Source: Candidatus Avipropionibacterium avicola
GTDB lineage: Bacteria > Actinomycetota > Actinomycetes > Propionibacteriales > Propionibacteriaceae
Assembly (NCBI GenBank): GCA_018715445.1
Contig: DVLP01000221.1
Location: forward strand, 1-11,842
Direction of reading: 5' to 3'
DNA length: 11,842 nt
Shown here: positions 1-9,893 of the stretch, piece by piece
Layout of the letters: each line of letters opens with the position of its first letter
How positions within the stretch are numbered: position 1 is the stretch's first letter
Position numbers and translations under genes: made by a program
The notes under the pieces: generated by a model
What the model was told of the DNA's origin: nothing
Database searches by the model: none
What the model saw: only the letters and a program-made list of their open reading frames with translations

Positions 1-514
1 CATTGACCCCGATCCCCCGCGCGATCGAGGTCGCCACCTGGGCCACCTCCAGGGCATGGGTCAACCGGGTCCGCTGGTGGTCACTCGGGTGCACCACCAC
101 CTGGGTCTTGCCGGCCAGCCGACGGAAGGCGGTGGAGTGCACGATCCGGTCGCGATCCCTCTCGAAACAGGTGCGTTCGGCATCGGGCTCCTCGGGCCGG
201 GCACGGTGACCGGCCCCGCGGGCCAGCGTCGCGCCCTCACTCAGGGTTGCCGCCTCGAACTCCTCGCGGGCGACCCGGTCGACCACGAATGCTCCCGGGA
301 CGGGGGCGTCGGAGTCACGATGGGCCCGGACCAGGTCCTGGGCGCCATGGCCCGCCATGGTTGCTGCCCACTGGATCGTCCGGTCACTCAGGGTGACCGA
401 GTGCTCCCCGGTCGTCGAACCTGCCCCGGACGAGGGTTCGGTCGATGTCGTCGAGGGGTCCTGTTCACACACCACGGGGGCCACTGTGCCATGTCGTCGT
501 ACGGTGTCGGCCAT
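1..514 (-). CDS. dgt: dGTPase-like HD-domain triphosphohydrolase (3' end outside window)
   Basis: The first 171 residues are visible and the rest lies beyond the left edge. Residues 118-138 carry the family block [21 protein letters not shown], followed by [13 protein letters not shown] (148-160). This is the start of the metal-dependent HD domain of deoxyguanosinetriphosphate triphosphohydrolases, which cleave dNTPs to the nucleoside and tripolyphosphate. H153 should be the first metal ligand. The HD pair and the last Asp would lie outside the window. The family block usually begins within the first few dozen residues. Here about 80 residues precede the alignable region (from about [10 protein letters not shown], 83-92), and residues 21-40 are rich in Ser, Thr and Gly. 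The start is uncertain. ATG at 514-512 is used here. The adjacent in-frame GTG (517-515) is better spaced from a GAGG at 529-526, and an internal ATG at residue 54 (355-353) is also possible. The gene is divergent from the carboxylase. The family assignment is firm, but the nucleotide specificity is not shown. Confidence 0.87.
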
Positions 515-630
515 CACCCACTCGTCCTCGTGACCAGCCCCCCGATCGGAAATTTGTAGATCCGCACAGAATCGCGCGCCACCCGGCTCGCCGACTGTCT
601 TCGGGCAGGCGTTGCTGGCAGGGTCAGTCT
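515..630. promoter_or_regulatory. Divergent intergenic region between dgt and the carboxylase gene
   Basis: This gap of about 116 bases must hold the promoters for both divergent genes. Its only AT-rich patch is at 549-560 (GAAATTTGTAGA). Read on the minus strand, TACAAA at 558-553 is a possible -10 element for dgt, leaving a leader of about 30-40 bases. On the plus strand, CAGAAT at 567-572 is a possible -10 element for the carboxylase, leaving a leader of about 50 bases. Neither has a convincing -35 hexamer at the right distance. A weak AGGG (620-623) lies 7 bases before the carboxylase GTG. I see no clear operator or riboswitch. Confidence 0.35.
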
Positions 631-3600
631 GTGCCAAGCTCCCCGTCGACCGGTGCCGCCGGCTCCGCCTCGCGTACTGCCCCTTCGCCCACCGCGTTCA
701 CCCGGATCGCGATCGTCAACCGAGGTGAGGCCGCGATGCGGCTGATCCACGCGGTTCGCGACCTCAACGCGACCAGTCCCGCTGATCCGACCGGCGCCGC
801 CCCCCGCTACACCACCATCGCCCTGCACACCGATGTCGATGCCGGGGCCGCCTTCGTCCGCGAGGCCGACGAGGCACACCTGCTGGGTGCGGCCGCCGAT
901 CGTCCGTACCTCGACCTGGCCGGTCTGGAGCGGGCTCTGCGCCAGACCCGCGCCGAGGCCGTGTGGGTCGGTTGGGGCTTCGTCGCCGAGGATCCGGCCT
1001 TTGCCGAGCTGTGCGACCGACTGGGGATCGTGTTCATCGGGCCGAGCGCCGAGGCGATGCGCAAGCTGGGCGACAAGATCGGCTCCAAGCTCATCGCCGA
1101 GGAGGTCGGCGTCCCCGTGGCACCGTGGAGCCGTGGCGGGGTCGACACCCTCGAGGACGCCCTGGCCGCCGCCGAGCAGATCGGCTACCCCCTGATGCTC
1201 AAGGCGACAGCCGGTGGCGGCGGTCGCGGCATCCGCAAGGTCACCTCGCCCGACGAGCTGAGCGACGCCTACCAACGCACCTGCGACGAGGCCGAGCGCG
1301 CCTTCGGCAGCGGTGTGGTGTTCCTGGAGAAGCTCGTCACCGGGGCCCGCCACGTCGAGGTCCAGTTGATCGCCGACGGTCAGGGCACGGCCTGGGCGGT
1401 CGGCGTGCGGGACTGCTCGATCCAGCGCCGCAACCAGAAGGTCATCGAGGAGTCGAGCTCTCCCCTGCTGGCCACCGAGCAGAGCGAGGAGCTGAAGGCC
1501 GCAGCCGAACGCCTGGCACTGGCCGTCGACTACCGGGGGGCGGGCACCGTCGAGTTCCTCTACCACCCCGAGACCAAGAGCTTCGCCTTCCTGGAGGTCA
1601 ACACCCGCCTGCAGGTCGAGCACCCGATCACCGAGGTCGTCACCGGACTGGACCTGGTCGCCTGGCAGATCCGGATCGCCTCGGGCCAGCCGCTCACCGG
1701 CGACCGTCCGGTGGAGCGGGGACACGCGGTGGAGGCCCGGCTCAACGCCGAGGACCCCGATCGTGACTTCGCCCCGGCCCCCGGTCGGATCGCCCGCCTC
1801 GAGTTCCCCTCCGGCCCCGGAGTGCGCGTTGACACCGGCGTCGCCGAGGGTGACACCATCCCGGCCGACTTCGACTCCATGGTCGCCAAGGTCATCGCGT
1901 ACGGCTCCACCCGCGCCGAGGCGCTGGCTCGCCTGCGCCGTGCCATGCACGAGACCACCGTGGTGATCGACGGTGGCGCCAGCAACAAGAGCTTCATCCT
2001 CGATCTGCTCGACCAGCCCGAACTCATCCGTGGTGAGCCGCAGTGGGCCGACACCGGCTGGATCGACCGCGTCCGCAGCGAAGGACGTCTGGTCACCGAA
2101 CACCACGCCGGCGTCGCGCTGGTGGTCTCGGCGATCGAGTCGTACGAGGAGGCCGAGCAGGGTGAGATCATCCGGTTCCTGGAGACCGCGCGCGGCGGGC
2201 GTCCCCAGGTGCAGCACGAGGCCAGTCACACCATCGAGCTGAAGCTGCGTGGCACCGGTCATGCCCTCACCGTCCTGCAGGTCGGGCCCGAGCGTTACCA
2301 GGTCAGCCTCCAGGACGGGGACCAGCCGCGCGTCGTGGCCGTACGCCTCACCCGTCTCGACGAGGTCCACTCCCGGGTCGTCATCGACGGCCAGCCCCAC
2401 CGTCTGGTCACCGCGATCCACGGGCCGACCCATCTGGTCGAGGTCGACGGGGTGACCCACCGCGTCGAACGCGACGAGGGCGGCATGGTGCGCTCCCCCG
2501 CGCCCGCCCTGGTGATCGCCACCCCGGTCGCCGTCGGTGACGAGGTTGCCGCCGGGACACCGATCCTGGTGCTGGAGTCGATGAAGATGGAGACCGTGAT
2601 CCCGGCCCCCTTCTCCGGCCGGGTGCGTGACCTCGTCGTCCGGACCGGGACCCAGGTCGAGACCGGTGCGCCGATGATCCGGCTGGAGCCCCTGGCCGAA
2701 GTCGCCGACGAACCGGTCGGCGGTGGTGAGGCCACGGCCCTGGACCTGCCGCAGGCCAACGCCCCCGGCGATGGCGAGCGGGCCAGGACCTGCCTGGACC
2801 GGCTGCGGTCGGTACTCATGGGCTATGACTGCGATCCCGACGAACGGGCCCACCTCGTCCAGGAGTACCTCACCTCCCGCTCGGCCATGGCCGCCGACGG
2901 CCAGGACGTCTTCGCCGCCGAGATGGACCTGTTGGGACTGTTCACCGACTTCGTCGAGCTCACCCGCAACCGCCCGGCCCACGACGAGGTCCATCGTGAG
3001 CTTCGGGTGCACAGCTCCCGGGAGCACTTCCACACCTACCTCCAAGGGCTCGACCCCGACCGGGGCGCGCTGCCCGACCAGTTCCGCGAGAAGTTGCTGC
3101 GGGTGCTCGGCCACTACGGGGTCGACGACCTCGAACGGACGCCGGCGCTCGAGGAGGCGGTCTTCCGTATCTTCCTCACCCTGCAACGCGGTGGTGACGT
3201 CGACATCGCCGTCGCCCTGCTGCAGTCCTGGGTCAGCGAACCGCGCCCGGGCGACGAGGAGGCCGTACGGGTCCGCACCCTCCTGGACCGGATGGTGCGT
3301 GCCACCCAGCTGCGCTTCGCCGTCATCGGCGACCTGGCCCGCTCGGTGCGCTTCCGCTGGTTCGACCAACCACTCGTCGACGCCGAACGTCGTACCGTGC
3401 TGTCCCGAGTCGCCGACGAGGTCGAAGCACTCGTCGACCCGGGTGCGCCGAGCCGTGCCGACCGCATCGAGGCCCTCGCCGACATTCCCGAGCAGCTGGT
3501 GGGCTTCCTGCGCGACCGGGTGGCCTCCGGTGTCCCGGCATCCGAACCCCTGTTGGAAGTCCTGCTGAGACGGCACTACCTCGACCACACCCTGGGGGCG

Positions 3601-6246
3601 ATCAGTGTGGCCACCAGTGCCGGGCGCCCGGTGGTGCATGCCGACTACACGACCTCCTCCGGGGCCGAGATCCGCGTGGTGGCCACCCTGGCCGACATCG
3701 CCGACCTCTCCGGCAGCACCCAATTGGCCGACAGCATCTCCTCCGCCCTGGCCGACGACCGCCCGAACGCCGTCGAGATCTATCTGCGCTGGCCCGATCC
3801 GCCGCAGGATGCCCAGGAGATCTCCGACACCCTCGGTGCACTGTTGGCCGATCAGCAGTTCCTGTCGACCAGCCGTCGGGTCTCGATTGCCGTGTGTCCG
3901 TTGGGAAGTCGGCCGGTGGACTACCTCACGTTCCGTCGCCCTGATGAGGGCCAGGACGAGGAGCAGGGTGAGGACCAGGGCGACAACACCTGCAGCGGCG
4001 AGCTGACCGAGGACCGACTGGTCCGCGGGATCCACCCGATGGTGGCGCGCCGACTGAACCTGTGGCGCCTGATCAACTTCGACGTCACCCGCCTCGACGC
4101 CCCCGAGGACGTGCTGCTCTACGAGGCCGTCGCCAAGTCCAATCCGGCCGACCGTCGCCTGGTCGCGATGGCCCAGGTGCGCCAGATGGCCGTGGTCCGC
4201 GATGACGACGGCCGGATCGTCAGCCTGCCGCACGCCGAGCGCGCCGTCGAGCACTGCCTCGAGGCGATCCGGCGGGTGCGCAGCGCTCGGGGCAGTGCCG
4301 GCAGTCGCCTCGACGTCAACCACGTGTGGGTCACGGTGTGGCCACCGATCGAGGCCGACATCGACCAGCTGAAGGCGCTGCAGGACAAGATCACTCCGCT
4401 CAGCGAGGGTGCCGGACTCGAGGAAGTCCTCACCCAGGGACGGATCTACGCCCCTGACGGCGCCATCCACCCGATCGCGATCCGCTTCCACTCCCAGCCG
4501 GGCCGTGGCGTCGTCGCGGACATGGTGGAGCCACCGACCGAGCCGCTGCAGCCCCTGGACGACTACGGGGTGAAGGTGTTGCGGGCTCGTCGCCGCGGCC
4601 TGGTCTACCCGTACGAGCTGGAGGAAGTGCTGGCCGGTGGCGGAAGCCTGGTCGAGCACGATCTCGACGACTCGGGTCGACTGGTCCCGGTGAACCGGCC
4701 CCGCGGCGCCAACCGGGCCGGACTGATCGTGGCCGTGGTGACCACGCCGACACCGCTCCACCCCGAGGGCGTCACCCGGGTCGTGCTCTCCGGCGATCCC
4801 ACGAAATCCTTGGGAGCATTGGCAGAACCCGAATGCGCGCGCGTGATCGCCGCGCTCGACCTGGCCCAGGAGATGGGCGTCCCGGTCGAGTGGTTCGCGG
4901 TGTCCTCGGGCGCTCGGATCTCCATGGAGAGCGGCACCGAGAACATGGACTGGGTGGCCGCCGCCCTCAAGCGGATCGTCGAGTTCACCCAGGACGGCGG
5001 CGAGATCAACATCGTGGTCGCCGGGATCAACGTCGGCGCACAGCCGTACTGGAACGCCGAAGCGACGATGTTGATGCACACCAAGGGAATCCTGGTGATG
5101 ACCCCGGACAGCGCGATGGTGCTGACCGGCAAGCAATCGCTCGACTTCTCCGGTGGTGTCTCGGCCGAGGACAACTTCGGCATCGGTGGCTACGACCGGG
5201 TCATGGGCCCCAACGGTCAGGCCCAGTACTGGGTCCCCGATCTGGCAGGTGCCTTCCAGGTGCTGATGTCGCACTACGACCACACCTACATCGCCCGCGA
5301 CGAGGACCATCCCCGGCGCGCGAGCACCGCCGACCCGTACGACCGCGACGTCTCGGACCATCCCCACGACGGGGAGTTCGCCACCGTCGGAGAGATCTTC
5401 TCGGCCGAGCACAACCCGGACCGCAAGAAGCCGTTCGACATCCGTACGGTGATGCGGGCCGTGTCCGATGCCGACCACGAGGTGTTGGAGCGGTGGGCCG
5501 GGATGGCCGACGCCGAGACCTCGGTCGTCTTCGACGCGCGGATCGGCGGCCACTCGGTCTGCCTGTTGGGCATCGAGTCCAAGCCGGTGCCGCGTCGCGG
5601 ATTCCCTCCCACCGACGGGCCCGACACCTACACCGCCGGCACCCTGTTCCCCCGGTCGTCGAAGAAGGCGGCCCGCGCCATCAACGCGGCCTCCGGCAAC
5701 CGACCCCTGGTGGTGCTGGCGAACCTGTCCGGCTTCGACGGCTCCCCCGAGTCGATGCGCAACCTCCAGCTGGAGTACGGCGCCGAGATCGGACGGGCGG
5801 TGGTCAACTTCTCCGGCCCGATCGTCTTCGTGGTGATCTCGCGCTACCACGGTGGCGCGTTCGTGGTGTTCTCGAAGCGACTGAACCCGCAGATGACCGT
5901 GCTGGCCCTGGAGGGCTCGTACGCCTCGGTCCTCGGTGGTGCCCCTGCCGCAGCCGTGGTGTTCGCCTCCGAGGTGGAGAAGCGCACCGTCGCCGATCCA
6001 CGGGTTCAGGACCTCGAGGAGCGGATCGCGGCAGCCTCCAACGGGGAGCGTGGTGCCCTGGTGGTCGAGCTCGCCGACGTCCGCGCCGAGGTGCGCGCCG
6101 CCAAGATCAGCGAGTTGGCCACCGAGTTCGACTCGGTGCACAACATCCATCGCGCGGTCGAGGTCGGCTCGGTCGACGAGGTGATCAGCGCCGCCCAACT
6201 GCGGCCGAAGATCATCGAGGCCATCGATGCCCGCCTGCACGGCTGA
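631..6246 (+). CDS. Single-chain biotin-dependent acyl-CoA carboxylase, eukaryotic-ACC-like (BC-BT-BCCP-central-CT)
   Basis: A 1871-residue cytosolic enzyme that should carboxylate biotin with ATP and bicarbonate, then transfer CO2 to acetyl-CoA or another short acyl-CoA. The biotin carboxylase spans about 24-510: [13 protein letters not shown] (25-37), VWVGWG (111-116), GDKI (147-150), PWS (165-167), K191 and the [10 protein letters not shown] loop, QRRNQK with K270, E308, and E322/N324/R326 in [12 protein letters not shown] beta-rich BT-like linker follows (about 528-614), then biotin carrier with ESMKM, whose K652 is the biotinylated lysine. Residues about 715-1330 match the eukaryotic ACC central region: [20 protein letters not shown] (1133-1155) and [10 protein letters not shown] (1230-1239). 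Carboxyltransferase fills the rest: SSGARI (1425-1430), [14 protein letters not shown] (1697-1710), [14 protein letters not shown] (1739-1752). The start is GTG 631, the only usable start between a long non-conserved stretch and the first conserved strand. The substrate (acetyl- or propionyl-CoA) is not decided by sequence alone. It is probably cotranscribed with the reductase downstream. Confidence 0.93.
3946..3981 (+). repeat. Three in-frame 12-base tandem repeats in an acidic linker of the carboxylase
   Basis: Three consecutive imperfect 12-base units (GAGGGCCAGGAC, GAGGAGCAGGGT, GAGGACCAGGGC) encode [12 protein letters not shown] at residues 1106-1117. They sit in an acidic, probably disordered stretch of about 27 residues (1102-1128). 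This stretch lies inside the central region, just before the conserved [12 protein letters not shown] block. The unit length keeps the reading frame, so copy-number change by slippage would lengthen or shorten the linker without breaking the protein. Confidence 0.7.
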
Positions 6247-6254
6247 CTGAGCGC

Positions 6255-7184
6255 ATGCGCCGCCTCCTGCTGCCGGGCACTGACCTGACCGTGTCCGCCC
6301 TGTGCCTGGGCACGGCCTCGTTCGGCAGCCGGCTCAGCGAGGCGGAGTCCCGCAGGATGCTCGACCACTTCGTCGACCTGGGCGGCAACTTCATCGACAC
6401 CGCGCTGAACTACGCCGACTGGCACCACCCGGAGCCGGCGATCAGCGAGAAGGTCATCGGGCGGTGGTTGCGGTCCCGGCCCGACGCCGACGAGATCGTC
6501 GTCGCGACCAAGGGCGCCTGCCCACGGCCGGACCGGTTCTTCCGCGTGACCCCGGAGTGCATCCGCGCCGACGTGACCGCCAGCCTGGCGCACCTGCAGG
6601 TCGAGACCATCCCGCTGTACTGGCTGCATCGCGACGACCCGAGCATGCCTGTCGGCCCGATCATCGACGTGTTGAACGAGCTGGTGGCCGTCGGTCACAT
6701 CCGACACTTCGCCTGCTCGAACTGGACCGCCGACCGCATCGAGCAGGCCCAGGCCCACGCCGAGACCCACGGCCTCCAAGGATTCGTGGCCGATCAGCTG
6801 ATGTGGAGCCTGGCCGAACCCGGTCCACTCGCCGACAAGACCATCGTGGTCATGGACCCGGCACTGCACGCCCTCCACACCCGGACCGGACTGCCCGCCG
6901 TGGCGTTCTCCGCCCAGGCGAAGGGTCTGTTCTCGGGTCGCTACGACAGGGAACACCCACCACCGCAGGATTCGGCGGTGGCGCCGTACTGGACCGAGGC
7001 GAACCGTGCGCTCCTGGACCGGGTGCTGGCCGCGGCGACCCGACACGACGTTGCTCCGGCCGCTGTGGCGCTGGCCGCCCTGTCCCAGCAGCCGTTCCCG
7101 ACCATTCCCGTCATCGGAGCGAGCACGCTCGACCAGCTCACCGAGAGCTGTGCCGGGGCGGATCTGGTCCTGACCGACTGGTGA
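6255..7184 (+). CDS. Aldo/keto reductase family oxidoreductase
   Basis: A 309-residue protein of normal family length, a predicted cytosolic TIM-barrel NAD(P)H-dependent carbonyl reductase. It starts with LPGTDLTVSALCLGTASFG (6-24) and has the full catalytic tetrad: D48 and Y53 in FIDTALNYAD, K86 in VVATKG, and H125 in YWLHRDDP. Other family landmarks are SNW (155-157), FSAQAKGLFSGRY (218-230) and the cofactor-binding PVIGAST (285-291). ATG 6255 was chosen because it sits just before the conserved N-terminal strand. The open frame runs far upstream, but only as a shadow inside the carboxylase gene. There is no clear ribosome-binding site, and the gap to the carboxylase stop is 8 bases, so translational coupling is likely. 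The substrate cannot be told from the sequence. A role connected with acyl-CoA metabolism is only suggested by position. Confidence 0.92.
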   Translation: MRRLLLPGTDLTVSALCLGTASFGSRLSEAESRRMLDHFVDLGGNFIDTALNYADWHHPEPAISEKVIGRWLRSRPDADEIVVATKGACPRPDRFFRVTPECIRADVTASLAHLQVETIPLYWLHRDDPSMPVGPIIDVLNELVAVGHIRHFACSNWTADRIEQAQAHAETHGLQGFVADQLMWSLAEPGPLADKTIVVMDPALHALHTRTGLPAVAFSAQAKGLFSGRYDREHPPPQDSAVAPYWTEANRALLDRVLAAATRHDVAPAAVALAALSQQPFPTIPVIGASTLDQLTESCAGADLVLTDW

Positions 7185-8363: not shown

Positions 8364-8396
8364 CGACCAAGTCTACGAAACCCGCGCCGAACTCAA
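8364..8396 (-). promoter_or_regulatory. Candidate leaderless promoter of dus
   Basis: On the minus strand, TAGACT (8375-8370, matching TAnnnT) lies 6 bases before the GTG start of dus. That places the expected first transcribed base on the G of GTG. TTGAGT (8396-8391) is a possible -35 element with a short 15-base spacer. It overlaps the TGA stop of the lipoprotein gene (8395-8393). Leaderless mRNAs with this exact geometry are common in actinobacteria. The lack of a ribosome-binding site here fits. Confidence 0.45.
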
Positions 8397-9298
8397 CCGT
8401 TCAGCCGCTGGAGCAGGTCGGTGACGACCGGTTCGGCGACCTCGCGCCGCGAGCTGCTCGACCACCGGGCCAGCTCCACCTGCGTGGCGACCGACAGCAC
8501 CACCCACCACGGATCCTTGACCTCGAACTCCTGCGTCCTCGCCCCGGCCAGTGCCCGCAGCGCAGCCTCGACGGCGGCAACGAGCTCGTCGTCGTCGGCC
8601 TCACGATTCATGGTCTGGCACACCCAGGACGGGTGGCCCTGCCGGAAGTCGAGCTGGAGCCAGCGGGCGACCGGCGCCAGGGCCGCGGCCACCTCGCTGA
8701 TCGGCAGGGCGGTGGCGGACTCCCCCGGCCGCAGCGACACCGACAGCTGTGGGTCGGAGGTCTTGCGCACCACGGGGCGGCTCCCGATCGGCTGCAGCAG
8801 TTGGGGTCCGGGCTCGGTCCAGGTCGAGGTGATCAGCTCGGAGCCGTCGACCTCCACGGCTCCGCGGTTGAGCTCCTGGTAGCTGTCGCTCACCCGGCTG
8901 GCGCTCTCCGCGGGGTCGAGGGTGAGGAGGATCCGCAGTCCCCGACCCTGGTCACTCTGGCGCAGCACGCCCGGGCTGTCGCCCAGGTGCAGGGTGTCCG
9001 GTGGCGTCTCGGCGGCGAGCAGGCTCGTCAACGCCCGGGCCGTCTCGGCCACCTCGAGCACCGGCCGGTCCGCTTCTCCGACTGCCGAGACCGACAGCCG
9101 CGCCGCTCGACCGAGGTCCCTGTCGATGCCCACGCTCACCTCGGCCACCCCGCTCACCTGCGCGGCCCGGGTCTCGAGGTCGTCGGCGTACGCCTGCTCC
9201 TCCTTGGTCGGGCCGAGGCAGCCGGTCAGACCGGTCACCAAGGGCACCGCTGCCACGAACGGCACGGCGAGGACGAGACGACGACGGATCCGGCTCAT
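8393..9298 (-). CDS. Putative lipoprotein of unknown function
   Basis: A 301-residue protein I do not recognise. The N-terminus is a type II signal peptide: RIRRR at 3-7, a hydrophobic core (8-23), and the lipobox LTGC with C27 as the lipid-modified residue. The mature part should sit on the outer face of the membrane. It shows alternating strands and helices and no enzyme motif. Two segments look alike: LSVSAVGEADRPVLEVAETA (68-87) and LSVSLRPGESATALPISEVA (185-204), each followed by a further helical stretch. This hints at a duplicated small alpha/beta unit. ATG 9298 is preferred over an upstream start at 9340, because it puts the charged end directly before the signal core and leaves a 10-base gap to the upstream gene instead of an overlap. 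No ribosome-binding site is obvious, so it may be translated by coupling to the DUF3592 gene before it. Confidence 0.8.
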   Translation of the reverse strand: MSRIRRRLVLAVPFVAAVPLVTGLTGCLGPTKEEQAYADDLETRAAQVSGVAEVSVGIDRDLGRAARLSVSAVGEADRPVLEVAETARALTSLLAAETPPDTLHLGDSPGVLRQSDQGRGLRILLTLDPAESASRVSDSYQELNRGAVEVDGSELITSTWTEPGPQLLQPIGSRPVVRKTSDPQLSVSLRPGESATALPISEVAAALAPVARWLQLDFRQGHPSWVCQTMNREADDDELVAAVEAALRALAGARTQEFEVKDPWWVVLSVATQVELARWSSSSRREVAEPVVTDLLQRLNG

Positions 9299-9308
9299 CG
9301 GAGGCCGG

Positions 9309-9893
9309 TCAGCGGGGTTCACTGGGATCGATCGGACCATCGGGCTCGGCTCCCGGTTGGCTCCCCTGCTGGTGCGGCGGCTGATACGGCTGGTACGGCG
9401 ACGGCTGGTACGGCGGGGGTGGCGCCGATCGCTGGCGACGCATCAGCACCAGACCGGTCCCGCCGAAGACGGCCAGGAAGAGCACCGCCATCCCGCCCAA
9501 CATGAAGACCACCCAGAGCACACCACTGGCCAGACCGGCTTGCTGGGGGTCATCCGGGTTGTACCGCACCTCGACGGTGCTGCCGATGGTGGGCTTGTTC
9601 CCGGTGCTCACGTTGGAGGTGAAGCTGTACTCGTTGCCGTCCACGGTGTAGCGCACCACCGGTGCCCAGGTGATGCTGGTCCGCCGGTGACCGTCATTGT
9701 CGCGACGGGTGTTCACCTTCTGGACCACATCGATCACCTCACCCTCGGTGACGGGCCAATCGGCCTTGCGGTACTCGCTCACACCGACGATGGTGGCCGC
9801 CACCGCGAGGCCGAAGAAGGTCACCAGGCCGACCAACAGGAAGATCCAACCGAGGCCGCGACGTGATCCGGGAGTTCTCGTGGTGCTGACCAT
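9309..9893 (-). CDS. DUF3592 membrane protein with proline/tyrosine/glutamine-rich tail
   Basis: A 194-residue protein with two transmembrane segments (about 15-38 and 124-150) bracketing an extracytoplasmic beta-rich domain. The domain shows the DUF3592 pattern: WPVTEGEVIDV (46-56), APVVRYTVDGNEYSF (77-91), then IGSTVEVRYNPDDPQQAG (103-120). The function of the family is unknown. After the second membrane segment comes a basic MRRQR and a cytoplasmic tail with repeated YQP units (162-172), then an acidic proline-rich end. The start ATG 9893 is supported by the basic N-terminus before the first membrane segment. A TACGAT hexamer exactly 6 bases upstream suggests a leaderless transcript. It is paralogous to the gene upstream (9931-10551) and 10 bases before the lipoprotein gene, so the three may act together at the envelope. 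Confidence 0.87.
   Translation of the reverse strand: MVSTTRTPGSRRGLGWIFLLVGLVTFFGLAVAATIVGVSEYRKADWPVTEGEVIDVVQKVNTRRDNDGHRRTSITWAPVVRYTVDGNEYSFTSNVSTGNKPTIGSTVEVRYNPDDPQQAGLASGVLWVVFMLGGMAVLFLAVFGGTGLVLMRRQRSAPPPPYQPSPYQPYQPPHQQGSQPGAEPDGPIDPSEPR

Follow-up and report, generated by a model that had tools for sequence, protein, structure and literature searches.

An acyl-CoA carboxylase of eukaryotic layout has already been described in Saccharopolyspora erythraea: SACE_4237 carries the biotin carboxylase (BC), BT, biotin carboxyl carrier (BCCP), central and carboxyltransferase (CT) regions on one chain (Livieri et al., 2019; PMC6491548). According to the same study, it is an active homodimer of ~400 kDa with kcat/Km values of 0.85 (acetyl-CoA) and 0.52 (propionyl-CoA) per s per mM, a Km that is higher with acetyl-CoA than with propionyl-CoA and undetected activity on palmitoyl-CoA; it is essential, oleic acid bypasses it and citrate is unnecessary. 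Its CT groups with eukaryotic acetyl-CoA carboxylase (ACC) at 100% bootstrap, its BC clusters likewise, and orthologues are reported in eight named actinobacterial families. The gene examined here lies at positions 631-6246 of an 11,842-nucleotide stretch (hereafter, the window) of Candidatus Avipropionibacterium avicola, contig DVLP01000221.1, and its product is almost certainly another actinobacterial member of the SACE_4237 type, a homodimeric multidomain acyl-CoA carboxylase. Its domains, its motifs, the folds of its BC-BT-BCCP part and central domain and its place in the family were observed directly. The enzyme thus belongs to a kind in print since 2019 and is not a new discovery.

Four other kinds of carboxylase can be compared with the window protein: (i) eukaryotic ACC (yeast, Chaetomium and human ACC1), whose PDB chains have 2211-2407 residues against 1871 in the window protein; (ii) the LCC-type, which likewise has BC, BCCP and CT on one chain but is described without a central domain (PMC4833862); (iii) the split actinobacterial carboxylases (AccA3 with AccD/PccB and epsilon), which share the reaction, the BC fold and, with the characterised relative, the acetyl/propionyl promiscuity, but consist of separate chains without a central domain and have a CT only distantly alike, while the window protein is encoded by one open frame; and (iv) AccADCB (PDB 9kkm), by name a single-chain bacterial ACC of 1517 aa, which, as judged from its PDB row, has its BC in the C-terminal part and, hence, another domain order. 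The features of the window protein are as follows:

631..6246, + strand: multidomain acetyl-/propionyl-CoA carboxylase (putative substrates), 1871 aa, GTG start; open frame, domains and near full-length relatives
697..2067, + strand: BC domain, residues 23-479; three Pfam models
961..978, + strand: VWVGWG motif; counterpart VWAGWG in yeast and human ACC, HPGYG in split BC
2107..2493, + strand: BT-like domain; long helix 493-520 and beta-barrel strands 532-621 in the secondary structure of the predicted model
2488..2685, + strand: BCCP domain, residues 620-685; PF00364
2584-2586, + strand: expected biotinyl lysine K652 in ESMKMET; MKM present in 22/22 aligned bacterial rows
2746..4569, + strand: central domain, residues about 706-1313
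3652..3666, + strand: short turn at the presumed position of the yeast phospho-loop, residues 1008-1012; predicted model and segment lengths
4648..6243, + strand: CT domain, residues about 1340-1871; PF01039 at 1379-1869
5848..5862, + strand: HGGAF motif; invariant in 22/22 bacterial rows, RGGSW in two fungal ACC rows

The frame runs through 1871 codons without interruption. A longer open reading frame (ORF) in the same frame has an ATG at 445; on reading the sequence, GTG 631 appears to be the last in-frame start ahead of the first conserved block. The Pfam models follow one another in the order Biotin_carb_N, CPSase_L_D2, Biotin_carb_C, Biotin_lipoyl, ACC_central and Carboxyl_trans, all over cut-off; this order, together with the predicted models, bears out the single chain with BC, BT-like, BCCP, central and CT regions proposed in the original prediction, which had been made from the sequence alone. 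The residues after BC may be named a BT domain, as read from the predicted model, and the alignments with alpha chains of PCC and MCC run on across this region. The lysine in MKM is the residue that carries biotin.

The central domain is also linked to ACC. A search with PF08326 (ACC_central), which the original prediction had itself proposed as the first test of its claim, gave a significant match at residues 1038-1250 (42.8 bits; cut-off 23.2), and the outcome that the prediction had named as refuting it did not occur. In profile and fold comparisons, this domain matched nothing but ACC central domains with any strength, with 14-20% identity between the window protein and the ACC chains in the alignments. 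An acidic low-complexity stretch of 15 residues (3943-3987), modelled with low confidence, also lies in this domain and immediately precedes the best conserved ACC_central block.

As regards relatives, a scan of named genomes, 552 of which encode one, kept 80. They align at 60-72% identity to the window protein, and in 77 of them the match starts no later than about residue 25 and continues to at least residue 1860 (L025 and L062 are cut by contig ends; the match of L040 ends at 1770); with this many relatives near full length, neither the reading frame nor its domains can be due to chance. Proteins of Saccharopolyspora soli (L046) and S. hirsuta (L050) share 62% identity with the window protein along almost their entire length, and the published forward primer for SACE_4237 encodes an N-terminus that fits L046 (PMC6491548). 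PF08326 is present in 29/396 sampled genomes of the phylum and 89/196 of the order (own genome included in both), and in none of 14 named control genomes, through which alone other phyla were sampled; five of 72,556 plasmid records (Embleya, Tsukamurella, Nonomuraea, Gordonia) match the central domain. Two genomes hold more than one such gene: G370, with two different multidomain ACC genes on two contigs (L106 and L107; 46% and 44% identity to the window protein, overlapping parts, contig-cut), and Nocardioides immobilis, with two copies (L005 and L006).

The CT domain points in the same direction. In the PDB profile search, it scores highest with CTs of eukaryotic ACC (106.9 bits), the best split CT reaching 41.5 bits. 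In a CT tree of 42 rows, 22 bacterial multidomain and two fungal rows are separated from 18 other CTs (hand-picked matches) with support 100/99; Enemella and Jiangella are the rows nearest to the window protein, and long stems separate the bacterial family from the eukaryotic rows. A BC tree of 44 rows places 21 other BCs (17 of 24 loci, two own-genome proteins and two PDB chains) on one side, with support 97/96, and the family plus two eukaryotic rows on the opposite side; in the midpoint-rooted drawing, the eukaryotic rows stand outside the family plus the other BCs. Both trees are midpoint-rooted, and the direction of descent is not given by them. One LCC-type row is included in each tree and is placed elsewhere, in the CT tree among the other CTs; L155 and L194 were called LCC-type on the strength of their motifs and reading frame, not by name. 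The placements of CT and BC with eukaryotic ACC, the shared domain order and the chain of about 200 kDa agree with those of SACE_4237 (PMC6491548). Alignments A1, A3 and A4 hold the window protein and 21 of 104 relatives, A2 also leaving out L117 (short BC slice); A5 and A6 hold the window protein and 64 of the 80 loci, L025, L040 and L062 being left out as incomplete and the others as at least 88% alike to a kept row.

Every motif quoted in the original prediction was found in the window protein, although their reading as eukaryotic landmarks stands only in part. VWVGWG has its eukaryotic counterpart, and SSGARI fits eukaryotic NSGAR, GGAR being found in 8/18 other CT rows. HGGAF is not such a landmark: yeast and Chaetomium have RGGSW instead, and YGGAY occupies the position in 8/18 other CT rows. 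In the most divergent relative (L117:2708-8341, - strand; 42.8% identity), GDKI, PWS and one 10-residue motif are altered or gapped at their columns (in each case this concerns a single row, presumed to be that of L117), owing to either a draft-genome frameshift or a degenerate BC.

A further difference from eukaryotic ACC concerns regulation. In yeast ACC, a 36-residue loop joins strands 2 and 3 of CDC1 and bears Ser1157, whose phosphorylation by SNF1 is inhibitory (PMC5126230; PMC4833862). A yeast Acc1 version with a glycine linker for this loop has also been described (PMC5126230). In the model of the window protein, slice strands 310-318 and 324-333, which probably correspond to those flanking the yeast loop, are connected by five residues. 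The 27-residue segment around this turn has 22-29 residues in 65/65 rows of A5 and 22-31 in 22/22 rows of A3 (some rows are shared by both alignments), so there is no room for a 36-residue loop in any of them. The window protein does not show the eukaryotic regulatory loop with an SNF1-type site and, judging from the predicted model, control by a eukaryote-style phospho-loop would be absent. Phosphorylation of SACE_4237 is cited in Livieri et al. (2019; PMC6491548); by this evidence, its phosphosite lies outside any loop equivalent to that of yeast.

In its own assembly (3.25 Mb, 90.95% complete, 469 contigs), the window gene gives the one Carboxyl_trans match. Biotin_carb_C matches three proteins: the window protein, a pyruvate carboxylase (over cut-off) and a urea-carboxylase/5-oxoprolinase-like protein (under cut-offs), and ACC_epsilon has no match in the assembly. 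The window gene is hence the only acyl-CoA carboxylase found there, which is unusual; by comparison, S. erythraea has several other named CTs (PMC6491548). A beta-ketoacyl synthase was also found. On contig C46 of the same genome, L095:136-3969 is a frame of 1278 aa with a 5-oxoprolinase/urea-amidolyase-related part (373-666, just under cut-off) followed by a biotin carboxylase (about 694-1141). Among other carriers of the phylum, a further CT match is missing in only 1/28 (G393, 78% complete), and the tested non-carriers of the same family have two to four CT matches in 16/16 cases.

By analogy with SACE_4237, from which substrates, dimer and essentiality are inferred, the enzyme very probably makes malonyl-CoA for fatty acids. 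BC would carboxylate the biotin on K652 of the carrier using ATP and bicarbonate; the carrier domain would then swing over to CT; and CT would pass the carboxyl group to acetyl-CoA, yielding malonyl-CoA for fatty acid synthesis, and would probably also carboxylate propionyl-CoA. The non-catalytic central domain would determine how far apart BC and CT lie and how they are oriented to each other.

A relative in Tsukamurella tyrosinosolvens fits such a supply of malonyl-CoA. On a 386-kb plasmid record, a homologue of 1817 aa with the same domains, including ACC_central, follows FAS-I and holo-ACP synthase (AcpS) genes in a row on one strand (NZ_LR134452.1, 279070-294286; L195:1-7980 and L197). 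The 3099-aa protein of this row is annotated as a (type I) polyketide synthase; its Pfam domains (Fas1-AflB-like_hel, FAS_AT_central, MaoC and ketoacyl synthase) identify it as a fungal-type FAS-I. By title, none of the eight open-licence PMC papers listed in a search deals with a cluster of FAS-I, AcpS and multidomain ACC.

Several observations weigh against the assignment to the SACE_4237 type or against the role as sole acyl-CoA carboxylase. First, BC scores highest to MCC alpha and split bacterial BCs, above eukaryotic ACC: multidomain eukaryotic ACC is not in the best 60 of 125 PDB sequences with the BC profile, nor among the 50 matches listed for the BC-BT-BCCP model. The architecture proposed in the original prediction and the relation to eukaryotic ACC hold by profile, fold and trees, but BC as a whole scores nearer split bacterial BCs and is not especially eukaryote-like. 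Second, each tree has just two eukaryotic rows, pieced together from printed alignments and with long branches; long-branch warnings were raised (in the CT tree, two long branches join at the stem of the family plus eukaryotes) and the composition of the eukaryotic rows was flagged. In an earlier survey, Lombard and Moreira (2011; PMC3199775) put little trust in where eukaryotic ACC was placed, owing to its extreme divergence. Third, orthology to SACE_4237 is traced by way of its congeners, and the C-terminus encoded by the published reverse primer (EKGMLPQ; PMC6491548) differs from those of L046 and L050. Finally, 16/16 tested carriers of the same family have at least two more CT matches; as other CTs occur in nearly all carriers, incompleteness of the assembly may explain part of their absence here.

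Among other explanations, the one that survives best, although improbable, is that the enzyme, though eukaryotic in layout, acts mainly on an acyl-CoA other than acetyl-CoA, either propionyl-CoA to supply methylmalonyl-CoA or one with a longer chain. The lower Km of SACE_4237 for propionyl-CoA speaks for it, as do a histidine in the window protein at the position of the fungal CT arginine and a homologue on plasmid p174 of Gordonia polyisoprenivorans (L196:3491-8983), which is flanked by a YceI-family gene and one for a hypothetical protein, outside any fatty-acid cluster. Nevertheless, kcat/Km of SACE_4237 is higher for acetyl-CoA and activity on palmitoyl-CoA was undetected (PMC6491548). Moreover, the genome has a beta-ketoacyl synthase and yielded no second CT-family gene, so something must supply malonyl-CoA. 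It is very unlikely that split alpha and beta subunits fused independently into a chain that merely resembles eukaryotic ACC, as in the LCC-type: such a fusion would account for the BC scores, but it is largely rejected by a central domain that matches ACC central domains only and by the grouping of CT with eukaryotic CT, away from the single-chain LCC-type row. The complete eukaryotic layout might suggest that actinobacteria recently acquired an ACC gene from a eukaryote, but this can be dismissed in view of the low identity to ACC chains in the central domain, the wide actinobacterial spread (42.8-71.9% identity to the window protein), the long stems in the CT tree and a GC content of about 70%, similar to that of the remaining window sequence; a transfer long ago, into or out of eukaryotes, may have occurred.

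The surroundings of the window gene show little conservation. Its neighbours are an aldo/keto reductase, a tRNA-dihydrouridine synthase (Dus), two DUF3592 proteins and a class II tRNA synthetase. A conserved operon was rejected: an upstream ORF, the aldo/keto reductase and Dus match in 1, 2 and 1 of the 80 loci, the other neighbours in none, and no neighbour family is shared by more than four of 32 loci chosen from the 80. An ORF of 315 aa at 8393-9340 (- strand) has no Pfam family and, by eye, a lipoprotein-like N-terminus. A promoter and terminator scan of 300-6500 found nothing, and an Rfam search gave zero matches at gathering scores.

A bacterial ACC of eukaryotic layout is no longer the surprise that it appeared to be. 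Substrate, assembly and relation to eukaryotic ACC, listed as open in the original prediction, are not open for the family according to Livieri et al. (2019; PMC6491548), the only work among the listed open-licence PMC papers that, by title or abstract start, describes this family. Still, the family looks under-annotated: two annotated plasmid homologues are called "carboxyl transferase domain-containing protein", and no NCBIfam model passes its cut-off for the window protein among the 25 families listed out of 50 (best urea_carbox, 492 of 1303.85 bits). To the SACE_4237 type, the present locus makes modest but usable additions: (i) structural support for the bacterial central domain being the eukaryotic one minus the regulatory loop; (ii) a relative linked to FAS-I and AcpS; and (iii) a lineage for which this may be the sole ACC. 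It can be speculated, rather tentatively, that the actinobacterial family represents the pre-regulation form of eukaryotic ACC; that this lineage, or an ancestor close to it, gave eukaryotes the ready-made one-chain enzyme, to which they added the phospho-loop afterwards; and that the lineage of the window lost all split acyl-CoA carboxylases and runs on this enzyme alone. In any case, a loop-free bacterial relative would be a natural system for asking what role, other than regulation, the central domain plays.
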